This document shows, piece after piece, positions 13,520-25,970 of a stretch of 29,771 nt of DNA. Where the stretch lies: the IMG/VR virus record IMGVR_UViG_3300006990_000113, positions 1 to 29,771 of that record. One strand, written 5' to 3'. Both the position numbers and the translations under genes were made by a program. This DNA comes from a virus. How positions within the stretch are numbered: position 1 is the first letter of the stretch; each line of letters starts with the position of its first letter. Below the pieces are notes generated by a model. It did not search any database. It had not been told where the DNA came from and saw nothing but the letters and a program-made list of their open reading frames with translations.

Positions 13520-13527
13520 TATTTATA
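13520..13527 (-). promoter_or_regulatory. T4-type late promoter for the Ig-like structural gene
   Basis: Exact TATAAATA on the minus strand, about 36 bases upstream of the ATG at 13484 and directly after an intrinsic terminator. Expected start near 13511, giving a leader of about 27 bases. Together they insulate the structural gene from the unit upstream. Confidence 0.8.
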
Positions 13528-14018: not shown

Positions 14019-14398
14019 TTAGAACTCTTGCCAGCGGCCTTGTCGTCATGATCCTGAGTCATCTGCATCATCTTCTGCTTCATGCGATCCTTTGCTTTCT
14101 TTTTAGCATCGGAGTCATCCACCTTAGCAGCAGCGGGTGCTTCACACTCTTCTTTCTTAACGTCTTGACCTGGTTCATACCACTTGCCATCACCATCAGA
14201 ATCCTGCCAACGCTTACCTGCCTTGGCGGCCTTGATGTTCTTCGCTTTCTTCTTAGCGGATTCTCTGAGAGACTCCACCTCGTTACGAACAATTTTTCTT
14301 AGTGATTCGGACATGAGATCTTCCTTCTTAGGGTTGATAATTACGTTACCTTTCTTCTGAGTGGTAGTAATGTTTTGTTTGACTTGATCGGTCTTCAT
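14015..14398 (-). CDS. Basic protein with DxDxDG loop, 127 aa
   Basis: A Lys/Ala-rich protein containing GKRWQDSDGDGKWYEP (about residues 61-76). The DxDxDG core with an acidic residue a few positions on resembles an EF-hand or dockerin-type calcium loop. The flanks are charged helices (SLRKIVRNEVESLRESAKKK and a Lys/Met-rich end). The same short motif recurs in virion proteins of cyanophages as I remember them. Probably structural; overlaps both neighbours by ATGA. Confidence 0.75.
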   Translation of the reverse strand: MKTDQVKQNITTTQKKGNVIINPKKEDLMSESLRKIVRNEVESLRESAKKKAKNIKAAKAGKRWQDSDGDGKWYEPGQDVKKEECEAPAAAKVDDSDAKKKAKDRMKQKMMQMTQDHDDKAAGKSSK

Positions 14399-15927
14399 TG
14401 ATCGAGACCCATTTCAGAACGCCATGAATATGTATTCTCTTCTCCCATGCGTCTTGCTACGCCACGAGCACCACGGGAAACTGAACGAGCAACGCCGCCC
14501 ACAACTTTCTTGATACCAGACTTAATTTTATCACGCAGTCTAGTGCGTGGTTCACTGCTAGAACTACTGGAACTTCCACTGTTGTTGCTAGTAGAACCAG
14601 AGGAATCGGATGATGTAGAACTACTACCACCTGATGTAGAACTACCTTGGGATCCACGCTCGTAACCTTTCTTGAAGTTACTAGCAGCGCCCTTAGCAGC
14701 ACGACCAGCAGCACCAGCAGCATACCCAGCACCCTTAGATGCAGCAGAACCTGCTTTTTTGAGACCAGACTTAACAGCAGATCCAGCAGACTTCAATGCT
14801 GCTTTCATCTTCTCGCGTCGTGCTCCGACCTCAGGTTTTGCCTCAGGTTTCTTATCACCAAGACGCTTACGTGCCTCAGCACCAGCATCTCTACCAGCAC
14901 TCTGACCTTGACCAGAAGAAGCAGATGCTTTGTCCTTCAAGCGAAGAGCGTTGACCTTAGCAGGACTGGTGACCTCAGTCAGCAGATCGATACCATCTAG
15001 GATCTCAAAGGTTTCTTGAAGATCTTCGATGTCGAGTTCGTTAAGTGCCTCTACACAGATGTCATGCAGTTCTTCAAACGTATAGTCATCGAATGCTTCA
15101 TCAAGAATAATCTCATTGACGAGTGCATCAAACTCTTCGTTCTTCTTTTTGAGTGCTGCCTTACGGAAAGTAAGATCCGTGCGACTGCCGCTGTCCATCT
15201 TGCCCTGACTCTGTGGTTTCTTAGAACCACCAGCAGGTTGAGGACCAGCATCACTACCAGTTCTTCTGCCCTGAGCATACTTAGATCCACTGGACTTAGA
15301 GTCACCAGAGATCATCTTACCAGCATCGGAACGACCGTCCTGATACTGCTTCTCAGTCTGACCGTGCTTACCCTTGTAGAGTTCGTCAATCTGATCCTCT
15401 TCCTTCACGCAGTTAGGAACTTCCTTACCACCTTTCTTCTTAGTACCCTTTGCCTTATATCCATCCCAACATGTAGAAGCACCAACGTTCTTACGTGCCG
15501 ACTTCATACCCTCAACCATCTGGTTGTGGAGATCATCGATATCAATCCACTCCCTCTGCATATTCAAACCGATATCTTCGGGTGCCTTAGCAGTCTTCTC
15601 GCCTTTCTTACCGACAACAGAATAACGACCATCAGACTTCTTGCCTGTGATCACCATAGACTGACCACCTTGTGAGATCACTCTACCGATATTACGATCA
15701 TCTTTGAACTTACCTTTGTTCTTAGTGATCAGATCTTTTTCGATAGGGAACCCAGCGTATCCTTCTACGACTTCTTCGTGCGAGTCGATAATCTCTTCGA
15801 CTGTGGTAACTGCGGATCGAAGACGAGCGGTGGGTGCCTGCTTACCTTCCTTCACGCAGTCGAGAATTGTGCGCTGTTCTAACAGGGAGAACCCCATTAG
15901 TGCAGCACTAACCTTGATATCCAGCAT
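14395..15927 (-). CDS. Large low-complexity virion-type protein (510 aa)
   Basis: Modular. An N-terminal part starts MLDIKVSAALMGFSLLEQRT. The motif TCWDGYKAKGTKKKGGKEVP is one I associate with many cyanophage virion proteins. An acidic helical part follows (DYTFEELHDICVEALNELDI), then a histone-H1-like Lys/Ala stretch (SAGSAVKSGLKKAGSAASKG), a Ser-rich spacer and an Arg-rich end (GVARSVSRGARGVARRMG). Start at 15927; a longer frame would add an odd Ile/Phe segment and overlap the next gene's end. Likely packaged with DNA or part of the head core. Confidence 0.75.
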   Translation of the reverse strand: MLDIKVSAALMGFSLLEQRTILDCVKEGKQAPTARLRSAVTTVEEIIDSHEEVVEGYAGFPIEKDLITKNKGKFKDDRNIGRVISQGGQSMVITGKKSDGRYSVVGKKGEKTAKAPEDIGLNMQREWIDIDDLHNQMVEGMKSARKNVGASTCWDGYKAKGTKKKGGKEVPNCVKEEDQIDELYKGKHGQTEKQYQDGRSDAGKMISGDSKSSGSKYAQGRRTGSDAGPQPAGGSKKPQSQGKMDSGSRTDLTFRKAALKKKNEEFDALVNEIILDEAFDDYTFEELHDICVEALNELDIEDLQETFEILDGIDLLTEVTSPAKVNALRLKDKASASSGQGQSAGRDAGAEARKRLGDKKPEAKPEVGARREKMKAALKSAGSAVKSGLKKAGSAASKGAGYAAGAAGRAAKGAASNFKKGYERGSQGSSTSGGSSSTSSDSSGSTSNNSGSSSSSSSEPRTRLRDKIKSGIKKVVGGVARSVSRGARGVARRMGEENTYSWRSEMGLDQ

Positions 15928-15949: not shown

Positions 15950-16996
15950 TTATTTATTGGAAATAGACTTTTGATTCTTGACGAACTCACTGAACTTCTT
16001 CATTTCCTGCCCAGGAGTCATGTTCTGAACCGCTTGTCTGTACTTGTCGGTACCAACTTTCCAGTCATTACCACTACCATCGTCGGCAGAATGATTGGAT
16101 TGGTTGTCACTTACTTCACTAATATCCTGCAACCAAGTGCGGTGTTCAGTGCCGTCAGGCATCTGCATGATGACATAGTTAGTACCTCGGTGAGCAACTG
16201 TGCCACGCATACCACTGTCGTCATGCTCTACAACTGCACCAACCTTAAAGATGTGATCTAGCATATAATGATCTCGGAATGCTGCAAAGTCTAGCACAGG
16301 TGCATACTCCCAGACAGATTCCTTAACCTCTGCTTTCTTCTTAGCAGGTGCTTTCTTCTTCTCAGGTGGTTTCATGCCGTCAACGACATGTTGCATCATC
16401 TCCTTGCTCTTCTTATAACCACCAGATCCAGCATGGAATGCGTCGTGGTTACCACCTTGTGCATGTTTTCTCATCTCACTGGCGGATAGTTTCTCTACTT
16501 CATCCTCACTGTCAGGGTTACGAGCACCAGCAGATTTGATATTGATAGACTTGAAGTCGTAATGCTTACCGTTGTACTTCGATGTCAGATTCTCAAACTC
16601 TTTGACACGATCATCACCAACAACCATAGTGACATGCTCATGACCCTCATCATGTAGGTCACGTAGGATGTCAAAGATATTTCTATGCTGCTCAGAGTTC
16701 TGAATAGCATCCTTGTGGTTCTTAAACATGCCACGCATGTGTTCAATCTTCTGCTCAGGGTGCAGAGGATTCTTCTTATGATCTTGTGTTCTAGAAGGAT
16801 AGATCCGATAGTTACCAGAGTCACCAGCATGTGACTTGACAGCATCCATCAACTTACCATGACCAGCATGGGGAGGGTTGAACCTACCGAAAGTGATGGC
16901 AACATGCTTGTCTATTACCTCATTCTTCTTCTTAGAAGATGATGCTTTCTTGGCAACAGCGGCTGCTGCTTCGATAATGAACTGACGAAACCTCAT
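15950..16996 (-). CDS. HxGH nucleotidyltransferase (cytidylyltransferase-like) with extra C-terminal region (348 aa)
   Basis: The N-terminal half is a Rossmann-type nucleotidyltransferase: VAITFGRFNPPHAGHGKLMD with HAGH (43-46), VTMVVGDDR (about 122-130) and the second nucleotide-binding motif KLSASEMRK (169-177, the SxxxxR of this fold). Such domains join a nucleotide to a phosphate-bearing substrate (NMNAT, PPAT, CTP-transferases). After a Lys/Pro/Ala linker (about 212-228) comes a second domain with a KOW/SH3-like strand pattern (FKVGAVVEHDDSGMRGTVAH, then TNYVIMQMPDGTEHRTW). Start at 16996, coupled by ATGA to the ligase-like gene. Substrate unknown. Confidence 0.8.
   Translation of the reverse strand: MRFRQFIIEAAAAVAKKASSSKKKNEVIDKHVAITFGRFNPPHAGHGKLMDAVKSHAGDSGNYRIYPSRTQDHKKNPLHPEQKIEHMRGMFKNHKDAIQNSEQHRNIFDILRDLHDEGHEHVTMVVGDDRVKEFENLTSKYNGKHYDFKSINIKSAGARNPDSEDEVEKLSASEMRKHAQGGNHDAFHAGSGGYKKSKEMMQHVVDGMKPPEKKKAPAKKKAEVKESVWEYAPVLDFAAFRDHYMLDHIFKVGAVVEHDDSGMRGTVAHRGTNYVIMQMPDGTEHRTWLQDISEVSDNQSNHSADDGSGNDWKVGTDKYRQAVQNMTPGQEMKKFSEFVKNQKSISNK
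15951..15958 (-). promoter_or_regulatory. Weak late-promoter-like box
   Basis: AATAAATA on the minus strand differs from TATAAATA at one position and lies 24 bases before the 510-aa gene start. It overlaps the last codons of the HxGH nucleotidyltransferase gene. Could give extra late expression of the structural genes. Confidence 0.3.
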
Positions 16997-18189
16997 TTGC
17001 CCCAATCTTTTGCTACGGTAAAGTTTGCACGAGAGAATTCAAGTCTATCAACAAGTTTGACTGCCATGCCATCCTTGATGGCCACAAATCCTTCTGGACT
17101 AGTGACTTTGTATCCTTTCTCATCTTCTAGAAATGTACCAACACCCTCAATTTTTTTGAGGCGTTCGATGATCTGCTTCTTAGCGTTAATGAGATTCATA
17201 AATCCTCCCAAAGCAGCATAGATTACAGACTTATCACTATTTAGTTGTTTTAGTGCCTCCTCTTTTTTCTTTTCCCAGTTTTCCTTTGCCTTAGGCGTCT
17301 TCACACCTTCCACTTTCAATGCATATCTAGACTCAACAAAGGTTTTGAACTGAACCAACATCTGCGATGAACTAGTAGGCATCTTACCTGACTTGATCAC
17401 TTGGTTGAAATAAATCTTAAACAAACCAGCAGTTCCCATACCCTTAGTAGTACCACCGATCTCATTCAAGAACTTCCTAGATGAATCCAAGTTGCGCTTC
17501 GCAGTTCTCATACTCATGTTGAGTTTGTTCATCTCACCAGCACTGAGGTTTGCAATGCCGTTGGTATTGGTGAAGTCTGATGAGAATACTGCCACATCAG
17601 ACACACCTTGAAGACCAGAAACATTAACACCAAAACCAGCAGACATTTCAGCAAGAGTCTGACCAGTGTACTTAGTATGAAATACAATACCAACCGTAGA
17701 CTTACCTACCTTGCCACCCATCTCGGTTGCTTTCTCTACACAGTAAGTAATAGTATTAGGTTTGAACTTGTAGCATCTCTTGCCACCCATAGTAACCAGT
17801 GGTGGTGTCTCTGTATACAGAAGATCTCCTTGGATCACACCAGTGATAGGCAACTTTGATAGGTAATCGTATGCAGCAACCAACTTAGGATGCACACCAG
17901 TGCCGCCATACCATAGGTCAATCTCTTCATGGGAGTAGCATACCTTAGGTTCAGTCTTAGCAAAGACAGACTTGGTTCCAACAAAGAACATGTCCGTCTC
18001 AGGGTCTATGCCACAGATGATAGCAGGAGCACCGTCCCACTTCACAGTAACCTTAGTATTACCACCACCACTACCAGTGGTCAGCATACCTTTTAGACCC
18101 TCCAAGAATGCAAGTGCATTCTGAGCGCCAGCATAACCATTGTTGAAGATGTCATCTTCTAGGTGTTCGAGGTGTGTGTTCTTACTCAT
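16993..18189 (-). CDS. KxDG ligase-like nucleotidyltransferase (398 aa)
   Basis: Carries the order of motifs found in DNA/RNA ligases and capping enzymes: VKWDGAPA (Lys50, nucleotidyl-lysine motif I), VIQGDLLYT (119-126, motif III-like), TVGIVFHTKY (165-174), and near the end SPEGFVAIKDGMAVKLV with EGFV (366-369, motif IV) and Lys378 (motif V). A long helical insert separates the two halves. From memory such cyanophage proteins are annotated only as a DUF (DUF6267, not verified). By inference it may form a lysine-AMP/GMP intermediate and seal or modify a nucleic acid or small molecule. Overlaps both neighbours by ATGA. Confidence 0.7.
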   Translation of the reverse strand: MSKNTHLEHLEDDIFNNGYAGAQNALAFLEGLKGMLTTGSGGGNTKVTVKWDGAPAIICGIDPETDMFFVGTKSVFAKTEPKVCYSHEEIDLWYGGTGVHPKLVAAYDYLSKLPITGVIQGDLLYTETPPLVTMGGKRCYKFKPNTITYCVEKATEMGGKVGKSTVGIVFHTKYTGQTLAEMSAGFGVNVSGLQGVSDVAVFSSDFTNTNGIANLSAGEMNKLNMSMRTAKRNLDSSRKFLNEIGGTTKGMGTAGLFKIYFNQVIKSGKMPTSSSQMLVQFKTFVESRYALKVEGVKTPKAKENWEKKKEEALKQLNSDKSVIYAALGGFMNLINAKKQIIERLKKIEGVGTFLEDEKGYKVTSPEGFVAIKDGMAVKLVDRLEFSRANFTVAKDWGK

Positions 18190-19526
18190 GGTTGTACTCC
18201 GACTTTATCGCGGTAAGGGTTGCCAATAGATGATTTCTCTCTGAGGTGATACTGGTCTGTGGGTTTGAGGTTGTTCTTCAAGTGGTTTTCCATGTAGAAG
18301 ACTGGCATTCCTTTGTTCGTAGCGAACTTGTAGTAGGTGACCTCCTTCATAACAAAGTGCTCAATGACCTCACGATACACCAGGTCACCATCCTTGCTGA
18401 TCTTTCGTAACATCATTTGACAGATGAGAGAGGCGATGCCAACTTTGCCACTACTGTGCTTGGGTGCTTCCCAGTAGTCCTTAGCATCATTATAATACAT
18501 CTCTGCCAGTTTCAACCAGGAGGCTTGTGCCGCTTTGACATCTGATTCCTTAGGGTCACCACCCTTCACCATAGCATCAATGTTTTTGACCACCTCTGTG
18601 GGTAATTTTGTCTTTAATTTAAGGTCCTTAGCAATCAATTCCAGTGCAAGGAAAGAACCATCCTTCACTTTGTTCTCAGCAAGAACTTGTAAGATCTTAA
18701 ACTCAATAGTCTTCTTATATTTCTCAACCCAATCATCTTTCTTACCATCAATCTGTTTCTTATTGATAAGAGAAATAATATCCTGAGGTTTGACTACGTT
18801 AGTTGTCTTACTGATCTTCTTAACGGAGAAGGGGTATGATGTATTTTCCTCATCAAATATAACAAAGTCAATCAGTGGTTCATTACCCGCAGCAGGTAGG
18901 AATACCTGTGCATTATTCTTATTTAACCTACCATACCCTAGTTTATCTAAGTCAGCAGCACCACGTTCCAATACACATAGTGGAGCAGTAATCTCAGAGA
19001 AATCTTTCTCCACGTTATTCATAATATCAATGTATTCTGATGCTGCTAAGTCTGCATATGCTTTAAGTAGTTCCTTCTTCTCAGTAGCACCATGCTCCAT
19101 ACAAAAATCTGTTAGTTCAATTAGATACTCTTTGATTACCAGTTGAAGATCATCCCTTTTGTTAATAGCAGCGATGACTTTCTTATAGTAAGTATCAAAA
19201 GACATCTTAGTATCCATAGGAATGTCAAACGCCTGAGGTTTTAACTCGGGCATCTTCTTCTTACCTGTGGCAGACCTAGGTTTACCTAACAAAGGAGTAG
19301 AGATCCACCCCGACTTGTCATTCTGATACAAGACTTCTATTCTGGCCTGGTAGTTACCACCTTTGATGGGTTTAACATGAACACCATCACCCTTAGCGAT
19401 AACTCCTACCTTTGTTTTACTCTTAGCACCATCGTATACAACGATCTCTTTCTTAGATACAATCTCAAATCCTTTTTGGTAATGACGTTTGTAGTCATCC
19501 CATGCTTCTTTAATCGATCTTGCCAT
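18186..19526 (-). CDS. 446-aa protein, SH3-like start and possible nuclease core
   Basis: The N-terminus (about 25-80) has an SH3-like beta pattern: KEIVVYDGAKSKTKVG, KGDGVHVKPIKGG, then IEVLYQNDKSGWIS. The middle contains ERGAADLDKLGYG and FLPAAGNEPLIDFVIF, then YPFSVKK: an Asp (220) followed sixteen residues on by S-V-Lys (236), the spacing of restriction-type PD-(D/E)XK sites. The C-terminal half is helical with no recognised domain. Its stop overlaps the ligase-like start (ATGA), so three potential nucleic-acid enzymes are co-translated. Nuclease activity is an inference; the family is unknown to me. Confidence 0.7.
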   Translation of the reverse strand: MARSIKEAWDDYKRHYQKGFEIVSKKEIVVYDGAKSKTKVGVIAKGDGVHVKPIKGGNYQARIEVLYQNDKSGWISTPLLGKPRSATGKKKMPELKPQAFDIPMDTKMSFDTYYKKVIAAINKRDDLQLVIKEYLIELTDFCMEHGATEKKELLKAYADLAASEYIDIMNNVEKDFSEITAPLCVLERGAADLDKLGYGRLNKNNAQVFLPAAGNEPLIDFVIFDEENTSYPFSVKKISKTTNVVKPQDIISLINKKQIDGKKDDWVEKYKKTIEFKILQVLAENKVKDGSFLALELIAKDLKLKTKLPTEVVKNIDAMVKGGDPKESDVKAAQASWLKLAEMYYNDAKDYWEAPKHSSGKVGIASLICQMMLRKISKDGDLVYREVIEHFVMKEVTYYKFATNKGMPVFYMENHLKNNLKPTDQYHLREKSSIGNPYRDKVGVQP

Positions 19527-19734: not shown

Positions 19735-19856
19735 CAGCGGTTACCGAACCTCTTATCCATTTGCAATTTAACGTAATACATCCCCAAGATCCAGACGGAG
19801 AAGAGGAACCCCTCCCCGTATGACATGGAGTTCCAAGCGTGTACTGCTCCGTCCAT
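19734..19856 (-). CDS. Tiny membrane protein, 40 aa
   Basis: Reads MDGAVHAWNSMSYGEGFLF and then a hydrophobic stretch SVWILGMYYVKL ending in a basic tail MDKRFGNR, a single-span membrane peptide. It overlaps mazG (TGATG) and the next gene (TGATG), so it is translated as part of the chain. The tidy overlaps on both sides support it. Confidence 0.65.
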   Translation of the reverse strand: MDGAVHAWNSMSYGEGFLFSVWILGMYYVKLQMDKRFGNR

Positions 19857-20527
19857 CAGATGTCACCTTCCACACGGTTCTCAGACTCTTCGATAGAGAA
19901 ACTACCTTCGGAGTAACGTGCAGCAAGTTTCAGAGAGTTGACATACAGAACATGATCAAAGGTCACATCTAGTGCATGACATGCTTGTGCTGCATACCAT
20001 AGAATGTCACCAAGTTCTTTGACGAGATGTTCTTTGTTAGCATCATTCCAGGGTTTGCCTTGGAACTTCAACTTCTTCACAATCTCTGCGAACTCACCTG
20101 ACTCAGCAGTCAGACCAGCAGCAGCGGTGTCAAGACGAGCGATGTTACAACCATCTTCATGGAGTTGACGAAGACGTTCGATGTATGCAACCTGATCCTT
20201 GCTTGGTTTGGAGCAGGTATCATCAGCAAAGTGCAGATACTTATCAAGATCCACACGGAAACGTTCTTCTTTCTTCTTATTCTTTTCTGCTTCCTTCTCT
20301 TTGATCTTCTCAGCAGTCACCCATGCATTGAAACCCTTCTTATTGATGAAATCCTCAGGAGTTTTAGGAGTATCCTCCTGCATGTCTTCAAGTTTATCCT
20401 GCATACCGTCCTTGATATCTTGGGCAGTATTGGAAAGTTTCTCTGCTGCTGCTGATGCAGCATCATTACCCTCAAAGTTGACGTTAACGTCGTTGTCGCG
20501 GGATCTTTTGTTAGCGGAGTCGGTCAT
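19856..20527 (-). CDS. mazG: MazG-type nucleotide pyrophosphohydrolase with long N-terminal extension (223 aa)
   Basis: The C-terminal 110 residues hold the all-alpha NTP-PPase site: TAESGEFAEIVKK (Glu142, Glu145, Glu148) and VKELGDILWYAA (Glu171, Asp174). MazG hydrolyses (d)NTPs. In cyanophages it has been proposed to alter ppGpp levels or recycle host nucleotides. The first ~95 residues are an extra charged, disordered to coiled segment (KLEDMQEDTPKTPEDF, then EKIKEKEAEKNKKKEERF) not needed for catalysis. Start at 20527 by ATGA overlap with the helicase stop. Confidence 0.88.
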   Translation of the reverse strand: MTDSANKRSRDNDVNVNFEGNDAASAAAEKLSNTAQDIKDGMQDKLEDMQEDTPKTPEDFINKKGFNAWVTAEKIKEKEAEKNKKKEERFRVDLDKYLHFADDTCSKPSKDQVAYIERLRQLHEDGCNIARLDTAAAGLTAESGEFAEIVKKLKFQGKPWNDANKEHLVKELGDILWYAAQACHALDVTFDHVLYVNSLKLAARYSEGSFSIEESENRVEGDI

Positions 20528-21906
20528 ACGTGCCAAGTGTCAAATTTACTTTGTGTTTTTGTTTCAAGGAACTTGTCCTCAATGCCCTGACCAGAGTCAA
20601 GGATGTTGTCTTGTTCAGACTGATCACAATCATACAGTCTCATCTTCGCTCTGTCAATACCTATGATGAAACGTTTGTTCATTGTCGGATCATTGTATCT
20701 ATTCTTCAATTGTTTGACCATGATCTGACCTGTTGCTTCCAAATCCTCAGTAGAGATGAGAGCAAACATCAAGTCAGCAGTGGCAGGAAGACCAAATGAT
20801 TCTGATGTGTCAGTAAGATCAACATCAGAGTTACCATAACCAGACCTAGTGGTCTGTGTAGCAGTCATGATAGGTACATCCATCTCAACAGCAAGACCAC
20901 GTAGTTCTTCTGCAATACCTTTGATGAAAGTATAGGAGTTCACCACAGCATTCTTGTAACGTGCAGAGGCACAGATGTTTAGGTAGTCAATGAAGATGAT
21001 ATCAGGAGCGAAACCACGCTTCATACTCAGTTCATTCAAGAGAGACTTGAAGTGATTGACGTGAGCAGATGCAGTAGGGTATTCCTTAATCACTAAGCGA
21101 CCTTGGGTCTGCTTAGCAATCTTATCTACTTTTGTTCGGAACTGTTGTTTGGTGAAGAGAGGGTCTGAGAGTTGCTTGATGTTGATGTCCAGGAGGTTGG
21201 CGTCAATTCGTTCAGCAATCTTCTCCTCTGCCATTTCAAGTGTAATATAGAGTACGTTCCTGCCTTGCAAGAGGGCGGCACTAGCCATATGGCACATGAA
21301 TAGACTTTTCCCGACACCCGTTCCAGCAAGAGCGACATTGAGAGTCTTGCGAGGCAAACCACCTTTTGTGATTTTGTTGAAATATTCGAGATCAAAGGGA
21401 ATCTTGTCGTGCGTTTGGTGGTAAAAATCATAGCGGTCGTCGGAGTCTAGTAAGTAATCATGTCCCACAGTATCATCAAAGCATGTACCTAATGCTTCTG
21501 CCATGATGTGGGGAATGGCATCTTTGGTGCGAGTCTTGTCTTGACCATCAGCAATCTTAATAGACTCCATCAGTGCAAGATAGATCGAACGTTCTTTACA
21601 CCACTTCTCAGTAGTATTCAGTAACCATTCATCATTATATTGTGTGTCATCAATCCTGGTATCAAGGAATGATTCGATATCTTTTACGATATCCTCACTC
21701 AAATCTCGTCGCTTTTCGATCTCAATTTTGAGAGCAGTAGTCTCAGGAATAGTATTGTATTCCGTTACATAATCATTTATCTGATGAAACAATACCTGGT
21801 GTGGTTGGTGATCAAAGTATTCATCTTTTAGGAAAGGGAGTACAGATCTACAATAGTTTTCATCACGTATAAGTTTGCTGAGAGCAATTTCTTCAATCTT
21901 TTGCAT
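20524..21906 (-). CDS. 41: Replicative helicase gp41 (DnaB family)
   Basis: A 460-aa hexameric fork helicase of the DnaB/gp41 type. The RecA-like core has Walker A GTGVGKS (195-201), a LEM motif at YITLEMAEEK (about 220), Walker B PDIIFIDYLNI (about 301-311) and the sensor MTATQTTRSGYG. An N-terminal helical domain precedes it. Unwinds DNA ahead of gp43 and activates primase gp61, also in the window. Begins right at the end of the 2OG oxygenase gene (shared base) and is coupled to mazG. Confidence 0.95.
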   Translation of the reverse strand: MQKIEEIALSKLIRDENYCRSVLPFLKDEYFDHQPHQVLFHQINDYVTEYNTIPETTALKIEIEKRRDLSEDIVKDIESFLDTRIDDTQYNDEWLLNTTEKWCKERSIYLALMESIKIADGQDKTRTKDAIPHIMAEALGTCFDDTVGHDYLLDSDDRYDFYHQTHDKIPFDLEYFNKITKGGLPRKTLNVALAGTGVGKSLFMCHMASAALLQGRNVLYITLEMAEEKIAERIDANLLDINIKQLSDPLFTKQQFRTKVDKIAKQTQGRLVIKEYPTASAHVNHFKSLLNELSMKRGFAPDIIFIDYLNICASARYKNAVVNSYTFIKGIAEELRGLAVEMDVPIMTATQTTRSGYGNSDVDLTDTSESFGLPATADLMFALISTEDLEATGQIMVKQLKNRYNDPTMNKRFIIGIDRAKMRLYDCDQSEQDNILDSGQGIEDKFLETKTQSKFDTWHV

Positions 21907-23472: not shown

Positions 23473-25970
23473 CCGAATAAAAACTCCAAAGTGTTACGTT
23501 GTTCTGTGGACCATCCTACCGTCGTCAGTATAACACGGACTGGACGTAAGAAGGACTTCTCAAATTGTTCATCATAATCTATCGATGAATGGACATTAAA
23601 CTCTTTGGGTAGAGTCTGGAAGAATGAGATAACATTCTCACCAATCCTGTTTGGTTTACGTAGATAGATGTACTTGATCTTCTCACCCTCCTGAATCAGA
23701 GGATACTTGTGAGTGAGATTTAATTTCTTGCAATAGTGATTGTATAGCAAGGAACCTCTGACATGCATAGGACATCCAGAACCATAGATGTTCCTAGGTG
23801 AAGAGAATTTATTTATGTTATTACATCCACGAGGGAATGCAATATCTTCAAGAGGGAGACTTTCAAACTTACGTCTGAACTGTGCAATATACTTCTGGAT
23901 ATCTGCTTCTGTACCATTCATAACAACATTAAGTGCTTCCTTAATTGCAGTACGACATGGTGCAGGTGTAGAAGACTTGACTGCTTCGATACCCATGATC
24001 TTTAACTTAGGTTTCTCATACCTAACACCCTCACTGTCCCATACATTGAGCAGGTATCGTTTCTTTGCAGTCCAGATACCACGATCAGCGATGTTCTCTC
24101 GCTTCATTTGCATCTTTTGATCATATGCCGAAACATACGACGCCAGGTTTTGATACGATTGTTCAATAAAAGGTTCCAGTTTCTCCTGACAGATCTTGTC
24201 AAGTAGGGAAACAGTTGCTGCTTTATCGTCAGACTTACCACTAAGAAATTTAGTAACAAGAGGTCCAAGATTAAGATAGATTGAATCGGTGTCAGATGCA
24301 ATGACATAATCTACCCCCTCAGTTTGCAATATTTTATTTAGGTATCCGTTGACATCGGATTCGATCCATCGAATCGAGACTTGCCCCGAGAGAGTAATCG
24401 CCTCAGCATTTGCCAGATTGAAGTATCGGAAGTATTGGTTTCCGATGGCACCATAGGCACTGTTGAGTTGGATCTTTCTTGCCATTTGGATATTGGTGTA
24501 TCTTGCAATATCCTTTTGTAGTGCCACGGTTTCCTTAGGTGTGGTGGCATTTTCAAGAGACTGCTTAGCGTGAAGCATTCTCTTCTTGTATATGGTCCGT
24601 TCATCGTAGATCCTTTGCATCATTTCAGGTAGGAAACCATGTATATCTTTACGGTACTGAGCACCGTTGGCACACACAGCATACTCTCCACTGATCTCAA
24701 CCTCTTTGTTCAGCAGTTTGTCAACAGACACCGATGGGTGACGCCTCTCAACCAGAGTTTCTGGTGAGATGTTGTACTGCATGATGAGATGAGGGTACAG
24801 AGAGTTAAGGTCAAAGGACACCACCCAGTCGTAAGCACCTGGTATGGGTTCTTTAACATACGCACCAGCATACTGATCATTCTTTTGTGTACTGATCTTA
24901 GGTGGGACCACAATGTTACGCTTCTTCAAGTCATTGTAGATGAGGGTGTCCCACATCCTGACCTGAGAATAGACATCACTGAGGTTAACCTTAGCGTCAT
25001 ACGCAAGAGTTAATGCCAGTTCGATGAGTTTCATCTTGTCTTCTAGACGGTCAACGAGTTCCACGTCAACGATGTTGTACTCAACAAACTTTTGCCAGTC
25101 TTTTGTATAGAACTCTTTGAAGTTCTGGTATTCACTGTGATCAATCTTTGCTTGACCCAGTTCTACATTTGCAATGTGATCTAGACGATAAGATTCTTGT
25201 GCAGAATAAGTGAACTTCTTGTACAGATCTAAGTAATCTAGAATCGTGACACCATTGATTTCATATGAGATGTGCTTACGACCCATCATCTCAATTTCAC
25301 GTTCCATCACACGGTTCCAGGGGGAGAGACCTTTCTTCCAAGTCTCTCCTAGCACCCGCTCAAATCGACGACAGATGTAAGGAATATCATACAGGTTGCA
25401 GTTCCAACCAGTGATAATATCAGGAGTGTTTTGAGACCACCAAGCATGAAAGTCTTCCAACATATCCACTTCCTTCCAAAAGACACGATACTCTGTGTCC
25501 TTCGGTGTAAATTCCCTCGTACCCCAAGTTATCACCTCCTTGGTAGCAAGATTCTTCATAGTAATACAAAGTATCTCTTCTTGACACGCCTCTACTGAGG
25601 GGAATCCATTGTCACAACCAACTTCGATGTCAATCGTATAGATCTTCATCGCGTTCATATCGAAACGAATCTCATCAGGGAACTTGTCAGCGATGAATTG
25701 ATACACGAATCTGTCATACCCATGCACTTCTAACCCATCAACGTCAGTATACTTCTCGATAAACTTTCGAGCATCCCTAGCACCATCAAAGTGTTTAGGG
25801 TGAGCATACCTACCATCAAGAGTCTTATACTTAGACTCCTTGGTTTGGTTGTTGGGAACGAAGTACAGGGTAGGACGGCATTTCTCTCGGTACTCAACGG
25901 GTTCACCGTTGTTGTATCCCCGATACAGGATAACATCACCGAGTAGAATCACATCCGTGTAAAACTGCAT
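23469..25970 (-). CDS. 43: DNA polymerase gp43 (family B)
   Basis: The 833-aa replicative polymerase with 3'-5' exonuclease. Exo I is YTIDIEVG (about 112), Exo II is [12 protein letters not shown] (about 188) and Exo III is [12 protein letters not shown] (about 299). Polymerase motif A is [12 protein letters not shown] (about 386), motif B is [14 protein letters not shown] (about 500) and motif C is ASDTDSIYL (about 560). The C-terminus NTLEFLFG matches the T4 gp43 sliding-clamp binding tail. All catalytic acids appear present. The ATG at 25970 joins the upstream stop as TGATG, ruling out the TTG one codon earlier. Confidence 0.98.

Follow-up and report, generated by a model that had tools for sequence, protein, structure and literature searches.

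A virus record of 29,771 nucleotides (IMG/VR IMGVR_UViG_3300006990_000113), here called the window and taken over the whole length of the record, carries three adjoining genes, C, B and A. The record is likely a fragment, and its nearest named relatives in the three genes are the Kyanoviridae phages S-WAM1 and S-SZBM1. We propose, at about even odds, that C, B and A form a module of nucleic-acid enzymes in marine T4-like phages, and that the virion delivers at least part of it, in the manner of the T4 internal head proteins. A is a predicted nucleotidyltransferase that starts with a capsid-targeting-like leader, B has ligase-type nucleotidyltransferase motifs and a predicted fold that matches RNA ligases best, and C has a nuclease-type signature. 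The system is larger than the three genes first noted: the position of C is a hypervariable slot. The original prediction had described three consecutive genes joined by ATGA overlaps, and both junctions do read ATGA. Coordinates of all features are given in Table 1.

Gene A is a predicted nucleotidyltransferase with a head-targeting-like leader

A matched Pfam PF01467 (E 1.1e-7) and PHROG 395 'cytidyltransferase' (phrog_395, E 4.2e-89). The pattern GRxNPP[HTS]xGH was kept in 133 of 138 A proteins, and the window protein also carries LSASEMR. The first reading of A as an HxGH nucleotidyltransferase is thus supported by Pfam and by motif conservation. Among NCBIfam models, the adenylyltransferases of nicotinamide mononucleotide (NMN) and nicotinic acid mononucleotide (NaMN) were the best matches, below the equivalog cut-off (TIGR00482, 24.3 vs 112.45 bits). 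The substrate of A is not fixed by this match because it lies far under the cut-off. A search of PDB sequences with A gave a best E of 0.83, which we read as chance. Matches to A were found in 528 of 50,697 phage records. Phage records were listed for the best 60 of 528 matches to A, the best 60 of 467 to B and, in a third set, the best 40 of 317; among the matches listed, the phages bearing A were chiefly T4-like cyanophages, together with some large enterobacteria and Pseudomonas phages. In S-RSM4 and S-PM2, separate small genes (L186:8730-8984; L188:9306-9581) are similar to the C-terminal stretch of A. They are labelled 'ribonucleotide reductase alpha subunit' or 'possible cytitidyltransferase', apparently in error.

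The start of A was compared with a leader signature, M-x(0-5)-[FYL]-x2-[FYIL]-[LIVFAT]-x-E, based on what we take to be the letters of the T4 capsid-targeting leader and the rule of the prohead protease. The T4 leader has 10 residues, is cut off by the prohead protease and can bring foreign proteins into the head (PMC3012670, PMC10229621, PMC5694885, as excerpted). The signature was present in 112 of 119 distinct A proteins (loci L001-L233), compared to 29 of 868 control open reading frames (ORFs) and 8 of 868 shuffled control starts; the controls include neighbor genes that may be packaged themselves. In contigs from metagenome-assembled genomes (MAGs), which were assigned to phage by gene content, the signature was seen in 11 of 19 A proteins vs 18 of 220 control ORFs and 3 of 220 shuffled starts. 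It was also found on 16 of 32 B proteins and 7 of 19 slot proteins in the MAG contigs, for example as MYSFKQYLNEAKNTH in the B protein of L238.

Published virion lists of relatives also include A. It was found in purified S-SM1 virions as T4-GC190 (PMC3037559), the cluster number that the S-SM1 A gene carries in its annotation. It is listed for S-SZBM1 (_140, 2 peptides; Table 1 of PMC9146016), S-CREM2 (ORF154, 3 unique peptides; PMC10665884) and S-SCSM1 (ORF91; PMC9602691). The excerpted texts further cite S-CBWM1 for the same enzyme borne in virions. A slot protein may also be carried: the S-SCSM1 record labels gp282, whose gene directly precedes A, as 'virion protein', and gp282 shares 43.7% identity with slot family 3 over 449 residues. 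Sequence and these lists together make head delivery of A very likely. The estimate was lowered slightly because of the non-detections in S-PM2 and S-CREM1 described below.

The same enzyme could serve another purpose. A might be an NMN adenylyltransferase (NMNAT) delivered early to restore host nicotinamide adenine dinucleotide (NAD), with B and C as unrelated passengers. The best NCBIfam matches, far below the cut-off as they are, point to such enzymes, jumbo phages are described as having HIGH-type NMNATs in the literature excerpts, and NAD supply was proposed by the authors of PMC9602691 and PMC10665884. However, A scores below the NMNAT family cut-offs. No nicotinamide phosphoribosyltransferase was noticed by eye among the window ORFs, with no profile search aimed at one, and a stand-alone metabolic role leaves the fusion and adjacency of B and A unexplained. 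We consider this explanation improbable.

Gene B has the motifs and predicted fold of a ligase-type nucleotidyltransferase

B matched DUF6267 over nearly its full length (PF19782, E 7.7e-127). This was the only Pfam match at E up to 1, and none was seen to PF01068, PF01653 or PF09414. A full-text search of open-licence papers found none under DUF6267. B matched 467 of the 50,697 phage records. Its original description as a KxDG ligase-like nucleotidyltransferase held up well: among 164 B proteins of at least 280 amino acids (aa), KxDG (motif I) was kept in 163, the QxD-type acid of motif III in 164, EG (motif IV) in 164 and the KxxDR-type motif V in 163. Residues invariant in a 42-row alignment include K50, D52, G53, Q120, D122, E366, G367, V369, K378 and R382. 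B ends 16 residues past motif V, and no C-terminal OB domain is visible.

Structure models were made for B and C of the window. The AlphaFold model of B has a mean predicted local distance difference test score (pLDDT) of 84 and shows a helical insertion ahead of motif IV. In VIA-align, the Naegleria RNA ligase 6vt1 came first, with a Z of 8.4 (near 8, the tool warns, Z can be background), a root-mean-square deviation (rmsd) of 3.8 and 182 aligned residues. The next rows were T4 Rnl1, TbREL1, T4 Rnl2, the tRNA ligase Trl1, an archaeal RNA ligase and DNA ligases. RNA or DNA ligases filled 48 of the best 50 rows, and the other two were not ligases. A search of PDB sequences with the B profile gave a best E of 0.045, read as chance. 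We accepted the ligase fold because the fold rows converge on one superfamily and the motifs agree. From motifs and model, we regard it as highly probable that B is a covalent nucleotidyltransferase.

A ligase fold beside replication genes raises the question of whether B is the missing gp30-like ligase of replication or recombination. C and A would then be neighbors with separate tasks, C a nuclease for host DNA breakdown or recombination and A an enzyme of nucleotide metabolism. The original prediction had set the trio outside the replication operon, and this was incorrect. Instead, the trio follows uvsX, the gp41 helicase gene and MazG and precedes the gp61 primase gene and nrdA, so that it lies between gp41-MazG and gp61-nrdA. 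Cyanomyoviruses lack g30 ligase, denA, denB and ndd according to the excerpted text of a review (PMC2984593), and no PF01068, PF01653 or PF09414 match was found in six of six Kyanoviridae genomes tested. B is also present in those 467 phage records, can stand apart from A and mostly has no leader in cyanophages. On the other hand, B is closer to RNA than to DNA ligases and shows no C-terminal OB domain, the leader seen on 16 of the 32 B proteins from MAG contigs suggests a place in the head, and the variability of the adjoining slot is unlike a replication enzyme. A role as gp30 replacement is a serious alternative for B, if a somewhat unlikely one.

The position before B is a hypervariable slot for nuclease-type proteins

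In the window, the slot is filled by C. The model of C (mean pLDDT 88) matched the restriction endonuclease MspI weakly (Z 5.0, rmsd 5.8, 196 aligned, residues 134-446), the only one of the best 50 rows that lies wholly outside the SH3-like domain. Residues D220, S234 and K236 did not vary among 25 sequences, the most distant of which had 22% identity. In PD-(D/E)XK cores, Ser may stand in for the acidic residue. C had no Pfam family over cut-off, no PHROGs match at E 0.01 and no PADLOC match at E 1, and its profile gave a best E of 0.047 against PDB sequences, read as chance. Matches to C occurred in 4 phage records. Among viral models, Foldseek linked C to T4-GC841 of S-PM2 (E 7.7e-12), which adjoins the B-A fusion gene of that phage, and to a protein of Agrobacterium phage Atu_ph07. 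C had been described as having an SH3-like start and a possible PD-(D/E)XK core. The SH3-like start and the D…SxK motif were borne out, but the match to a nuclease fold is weak.

Upstream of 135 distinct B proteins, we found a C-like ORF in 56 cases, another ORF in 66, a contig edge in 7 and no ORF in 6. These 122 upstream neighbors and the S-PM2 gene gave 123 genes in 17 families that were not joined by blastp at E 1e-4. A D…[SEQ]xK signature was present in 15 of 17 slot families vs 8 of 58 control families, and a looser pattern in 16 of 17 vs 15 of 58; the signature was framed after the sequences had been seen and was not blind, and eight control families homologous to slot genes were removed first. 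With the longest member of each family, 14 of 17 were positive compared to a shuffle mean of 4.8 and maximum of 11, and the loose pattern gave 16 of 17 vs a mean of 6.9 and maximum of 12. When MAG contigs were included, 16 of 21 families of at least 170 aa were positive; the five negatives, of 178-245 aa, may be other genes. Two slot families have the canonical ExK (FELK, LEVK).

Slot families turn over quickly relative to B. The slot family was shared in 769 of 2666 pairs at 60-70% B identity and in 157 of 170 pairs at 80-90%, and it differed in 8 of 57 pairs at 90-95% and 4 of 54 at 95% and above; pairs were counted, and they are not independent of one another. Several families were found both in cyanophages and in MAG contigs that resemble other phages, which suggests exchange. 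Profile-profile comparison of the families gave one pair above 90% probability in one run and two in another. The motif lysine coincided in 5 of 136 family pairs vs 0.07 expected, two of the five being clear homologues. Slot proteins of relatives had no Pfam match over cut-off, and among 10 proteins scanned no match to PADLOC defence families was better than E 0.0028. As judged from their sequences, the slot families are likely to be mostly nucleases.

Rapid turnover might also mean that selfish endonucleases of the homing type repeatedly insert at the slot, and that the neighboring B-A pair is unrelated to them. The turnover is extreme, and T4-like phages including cyanophages carry homing endonucleases (PMC3037559, as excerpted). 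Slot genes, however, share the strand of B, many of them run up to or into its start, and the slot is rarely empty (the 6 of 135 without an ORF, with 7 at contig edges). One slot protein has a virion label in its record, and 7 of the 19 from MAG contigs begin with the leader, which a selfish element would not need. We find the homing explanation very improbable.

CCGG does not occur in the window (0 vs 20.8 expected), and AGCT is also rare (2 vs 74.5). CCGG is the recognition site of MspI. Observed and expected CCGG counts were 0/155 in S-SZBM1, 0/168 in S-WAM1, 1/138 in Syn9, 0/128 in S-RSM4 and 0/88 in S-PM2, with those for S-WAM1, S-RSM4 and S-PM2 taken over the first 180 kb. Pooled cyanophage contigs gave 46/733 vs 110/119 in heterotroph-type contigs, in which the word is not avoided. 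Besides the window, the loci counted were L270-L273 and L274-L309. CCGG was absent or nearly so with slot families 0 (2 vs 365), 5, 9 and 12, and partly avoided with families 1, 3 and 4 (41/99, 19/63, 11/54). The idea that C causes the shortage was rejected, since avoidance tracks phage group more than slot family. A scheme in which A and B make a genome-wide base modification and C is the cognate nuclease was likewise rejected; the review, as excerpted, reports no evidence of modified bases in cyanomyoviruses.

C, B and A are commonly linked in T4-like cyanophages

A lies directly downstream of 109 of the 135 distinct B proteins; it is fused in 1 case, separated by a gap in 4, cut off by a contig edge in 12 and missing in 9, in contigs found via B relatives of two types (window, Syn9) and via named phage loci, a sampling in which stand-alone short B genes are under-represented. 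PHROG 455 is a profile that spans B and A, and S-PM2d138 is a single B-A protein with a C-like gene adjoining. The trio stands together in S-WAM1, S-SZBM1, Syn9, S-RSM4 and S-SM1. In Melnitz and HTVC008M, genes are interposed between B and A. S-SM2 has a short B with no A annotated within about 3.5 kb, Vibrio phage 2.275 has no A within 8 kb of B, and in Pseudoalteromonas phage XG4 no A was seen by eye among ORFs of at least 170 aa within 5 kb. The module is common but can break up.

Short B proteins (294-302 aa) were seen apart from A in several cyanophages, often amid small hypothetical genes.

Relatives outside the cyanophages carry extra enzymes

In some marine non-cyanophages, an adenylate kinase, a zeta/AAA_33-type P-loop kinase or a HAD-like phosphatase is encoded between B and A. 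The adenylate kinase of L236 matched PF00406 (E 1.9e-37). The leader signature is present on this kinase and on the phosphatase of L256, both of which were counted among the leader controls. Some MAG-contig A proteins have a weak, below-cut-off Pol-beta domain in front (L236:2512-4989). S-CREM2 gp156 (L310:8013-8726) scores 21.4 as a Pol-beta-type nucleotidyltransferase, barely above the Pfam cut-off of 21, and is in the virion list of that phage (PMC10665884, as excerpted).

These enzymes would suit an RNA end-repair kit directed against host defences that cut tRNA or other RNA, in which B seals and A and the extra enzymes heal or extend ends. The slot protein would then trim, or act otherwise than as a DNA nuclease. 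The best fold matches of B are RNA ligases, and relatives do carry the kinases, the HAD-like phosphatase and the weak Pol-beta domain fused to A, with the leader on the L236 kinase and the L256 phosphatase. Yet the extra genes were not seen beside the window trio or in the annotated surroundings of the trio in S-WAM1, S-SZBM1, Syn9, S-RSM4, S-PM2 and S-SM1, whose whole genomes were not searched, and a repair kit has no obvious need for a hypervariable nuclease slot. It is improbable that RNA repair accounts for the module.

Some results weigh against a virion-delivered module

Several of our results, and of those published, do not favor the reading of C-B-A as a module delivered with the virion. 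A was undetected in S-PM2 virions in the excerpted account (PMC3037559); the S-PM2 A is fused to B and starts without a leader. The excerpt on S-CREM1 names no such enzyme among 14 virion proteins (PMC9964418), and the authors of the S-CREM2 study warn of possible carry-over in the CsCl fraction (PMC10665884). B and C are absent from the 30 S-SZBM1 virion proteins of the published Table 1 (PMC9146016), the S-SCSM1 record gives B no virion label, and B had none in the S-CREM2 rows examined. In loci L001-L233, the leader was found only in 8 of 135 B, 1 of 64 C-like and 3 of 117 slot proteins, and neither the window B start, MSKNTHLEHLED, nor the C start, MARSIKEAWDD, has one. In S-SZBM1, A bears the signature along with 1 of 152 other ORFs of at least 100 aa, but shuffled starts matched in 4 of 152, so that a lone match proves little. 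The leader case thus rests on conservation across A proteins, because a single match carries little weight. The delivery of the set with the virion, as originally suggested, is supported for A (the lists of four phages and the leader) and for gp282, but not for B, which is in no virion list examined.

The folds and the linkage have weak points as well. Foldseek of the B model against PDB gave no significant match, the best ligase being 1xdn at E 1.3. The score of C against MspI is too low to stand out. Among 33 MAG-contig B genes, A was adjacent in 5, beyond a gap in 13, at an edge in 3 and missing in 12. In S-CREM2, the short B and A are about 65 kb apart and no slot gene was recognized beside either. 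In S-SCSM1, the slot gene adjoins A at 87-90 kb and the short B is at 221 kb. In the listed isolates of ACG-2014f, the short B is at 39-45 kb and A at 136-141 kb. Separation of the three genes had been named beforehand as a finding that would speak against a joint system. It occurs in a minority of the examined genomes, and co-occurrence is frequent in T4-like cyanophages.

A proposed mechanism for the module

In the module as we propose it, A would enter the prohead by its N-terminal T4-type capsid-targeting leader, which the prohead protease would then remove, by analogy with T4. The slot protein, an interchangeable PD-(D/E)XK-type nuclease, would break host or rival nucleic acid on entry, and its specificity would be swapped under an arms race. 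B would self-adenylate via the KxDG lysine and seal or adenylate ends, thereby protecting or repairing phage nucleic acid. A could conceivably supply or recycle a nucleotide cofactor, for example by converting NMN and ATP to NAD. We suggest NAD because of the NMNAT-like motifs of A and its fusion to B in S-PM2.

The chance that the three proteins act together on one substrate is, in our estimate, a little below even. The cut/adenylate/seal or nucleotide-tagging function originally suggested is tentative, and so is our cut-and-seal scheme, which as written is rather unlikely. Also tentative, and rather unlikely as it stands, is a polymorphic head-delivered nuclease system, in which the ligase-fold pair would serve interchangeable PD-(D/E)XK effectors, injected to destroy or rewire the nucleic acid of host or rivals, and would seal the phage's own nucleic acid.

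The locus and its surroundings

Most long genes of the window are on the minus strand. In reading order, they begin with those for DNA polymerase gp43, uvsX, a 2-oxoglutarate-Fe (2OG-Fe) oxygenase, the gp41 helicase and MazG, followed by a small ORF. C, B, A and D come next, and then small genes, a head protein gene (phrog_613), the gp61 primase gene, nrdA and nrdB. The polymerase, uvsX and oxygenase were named via gene order compared to S-WAM1 and S-SZBM1, which have the identical gene order with C, B and A adjoining. An alternative TTG start at 17005 is possible for A, whose 348 aa are counted from the ATG at 16996. The trio was expected to lie directly upstream of Lys/Ala-rich virion-type genes. 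The next gene, D, is Lys/Ala/Ser-rich, and its S-SZBM1 counterpart (_139) is listed among published virion proteins (PMC9146016).

A late-promoter-like motif, NATAAATA (PMC2984593, as excerpted), is found right after A, ahead of D, and again ahead of the head protein gene. Upstream of C, the first such site is not reached until 23810-23816(-), within the polymerase gene. The window holds 7 sites vs 4.06 expected, and 13 of 100 shuffles reached 7. Single sites are weak because this total is not clearly above chance, and the case for the site before D is one of position only.

The MazG gene of the window (19856-20536, 226 aa) encodes a charged N-terminal extension of about 100 residues with no family over cut-off. 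MazG is likewise long in S-WAM1 and S-SZBM1 and has 133-135 aa in Syn9, S-PM2 and S-SM1.

Table 1. Features of the trio, its surroundings and related loci. Positions are those of the window, except for entries beginning with L, which are loci of relatives.
Feature	Position	Strand	Basis
Gene C, slot gene, 446 aa: SH3b-like N-terminal and PD-(D/E)XK-like domains	18186..19526	-	motif, model, alignment
C residues 18-87, bacterial SH3-like domain	19266..19475	-	VIA-align Z 7.8 to 2evr, rmsd 2.9, 65 aligned
C residues 220-236, D…SVK catalytic-type signature, DFVIFDEENTSYPFSVK	18819..18869	-	alignment
ATGA overlap, C stop/B start	18186..18189	-	sequence
Gene B, 398 aa: DUF6267, predicted ligase-type nucleotidyltransferase fold	16993..18189	-	PF19782, E 7.7e-127; fold similar to RNA ligases
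B residues 50-53, KWDG, nucleotidyltransferase motif I	18031..18042	-	motif, alignment
B residues 366-382, EGFVAI … KLVDR, motifs IV and V	17044..17094	-	motif, alignment
ATGA overlap, B stop/A start	16993..16996	-	sequence
Gene A, 348 aa: predicted (H/T)xGH nucleotidyltransferase with leader	15950..16996	-	PF01467, phrog_395
A residues 1-9, MRFRQFIIE, capsid-targeting-like leader	16970..16996	-	leader signature
A residues 36-46, FGRFNPPHAGH	16859..16891	-	motif
A residues 253-292, C-terminal stretch in phrog_4808 match, KOW/SH3-like by eye	16121..16240	-	profile and eye
Gene D, Lys/Ala/Ser-rich virion-type protein, 3' of trio	14395..15927	-	start at 15927
NATAAATA, late-promoter-like site right after A, ahead of D	15951..15957	-	motif from PMC2984593
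NATAAATA, late-promoter-like site ahead of head protein gene	13520..13526	-	motif match
Interposed enzyme genes of relatives	L236:1239-2511, L237:5797-7066, L238:6194-7451, L256:6445-7053, L319:6718-7380		
Short B loci	L318:3998-4882, L315:2391-3278, L316:4001-4906, L317:3998-4906		

Relation to known systems and significance

Like the T4 internal head proteins (IPI, IPII, IPIII, Alt), A has a short N-terminal leader ending in E, a leader also seen on B and some slot proteins of relatives, and probably shares with them packaging in the head. The cargo of T-even internal head proteins is diverse and only the leader is conserved (PMC3012670, as excerpted). The T4 internal proteins named there are small defence proteins, whereas here nucleotidyltransferase, ligase-fold and nuclease-type proteins are encoded together. 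B shares the nucleotidyltransferase fold, KxDG, the acidic motif III, EG and the K motifs with RNA ligases (Naegleria, T4 Rnl1/Rnl2, TbREL1, Trl1), but it has no PF09414 match, a helical insertion, almost nothing past motif V and 9-14% identity. C and most slot families share D…(S/E)xK with PD-(D/E)XK restriction endonucleases such as MspI, to which C aligned weakly, at Z 5.0 over 196 residues. In contrast to MspI-type enzymes, C has no sequence match, an SH3b domain in front and no methyltransferase gene directly beside it. A has the (H/T)xGH and SxTxxR-type motifs of NMN/NaMN adenylyltransferases (NadM, NadD, NadR), yet differs from them in scores far below the cut-offs, a head leader, an extra C-terminal stretch and the fusion to B in S-PM2.

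Among the T4-like gene clusters, A is the cyanophage 'cytitidyltransferase' T4-GC190 and B is T4-GC71, whose annotations assign it no function. A has been called a cyanophage core protein (PMC3037559, as excerpted), and its detection in virions and the NMNAT guess are already published. Our searches of the open-licence literature turned up no description of a ligase fold for B, of the nuclease slot, of the leaders or of a link among the three genes.

B and A occur widely among sequenced marine T4-like phages, and no function test was found in the literature for either. The ligase fold of B and the nuclease-like slot bear on gaps noted in a review, in the excerpted text, namely the ligase and the host-DNA nucleases of T4-like cyanophages (PMC2984593). 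If true, a polymorphic nuclease system would parallel, on the phage side, restriction-modification or polymorphic toxin systems. It would also fill the reported gap in cyanophage machinery for breaking host DNA and for ligation. Injection of the set, if it occurs, would widen the range of T4-type internal proteins beyond small defence proteins, to a nucleic-acid kit of several enzymes that turns over in an arms race.

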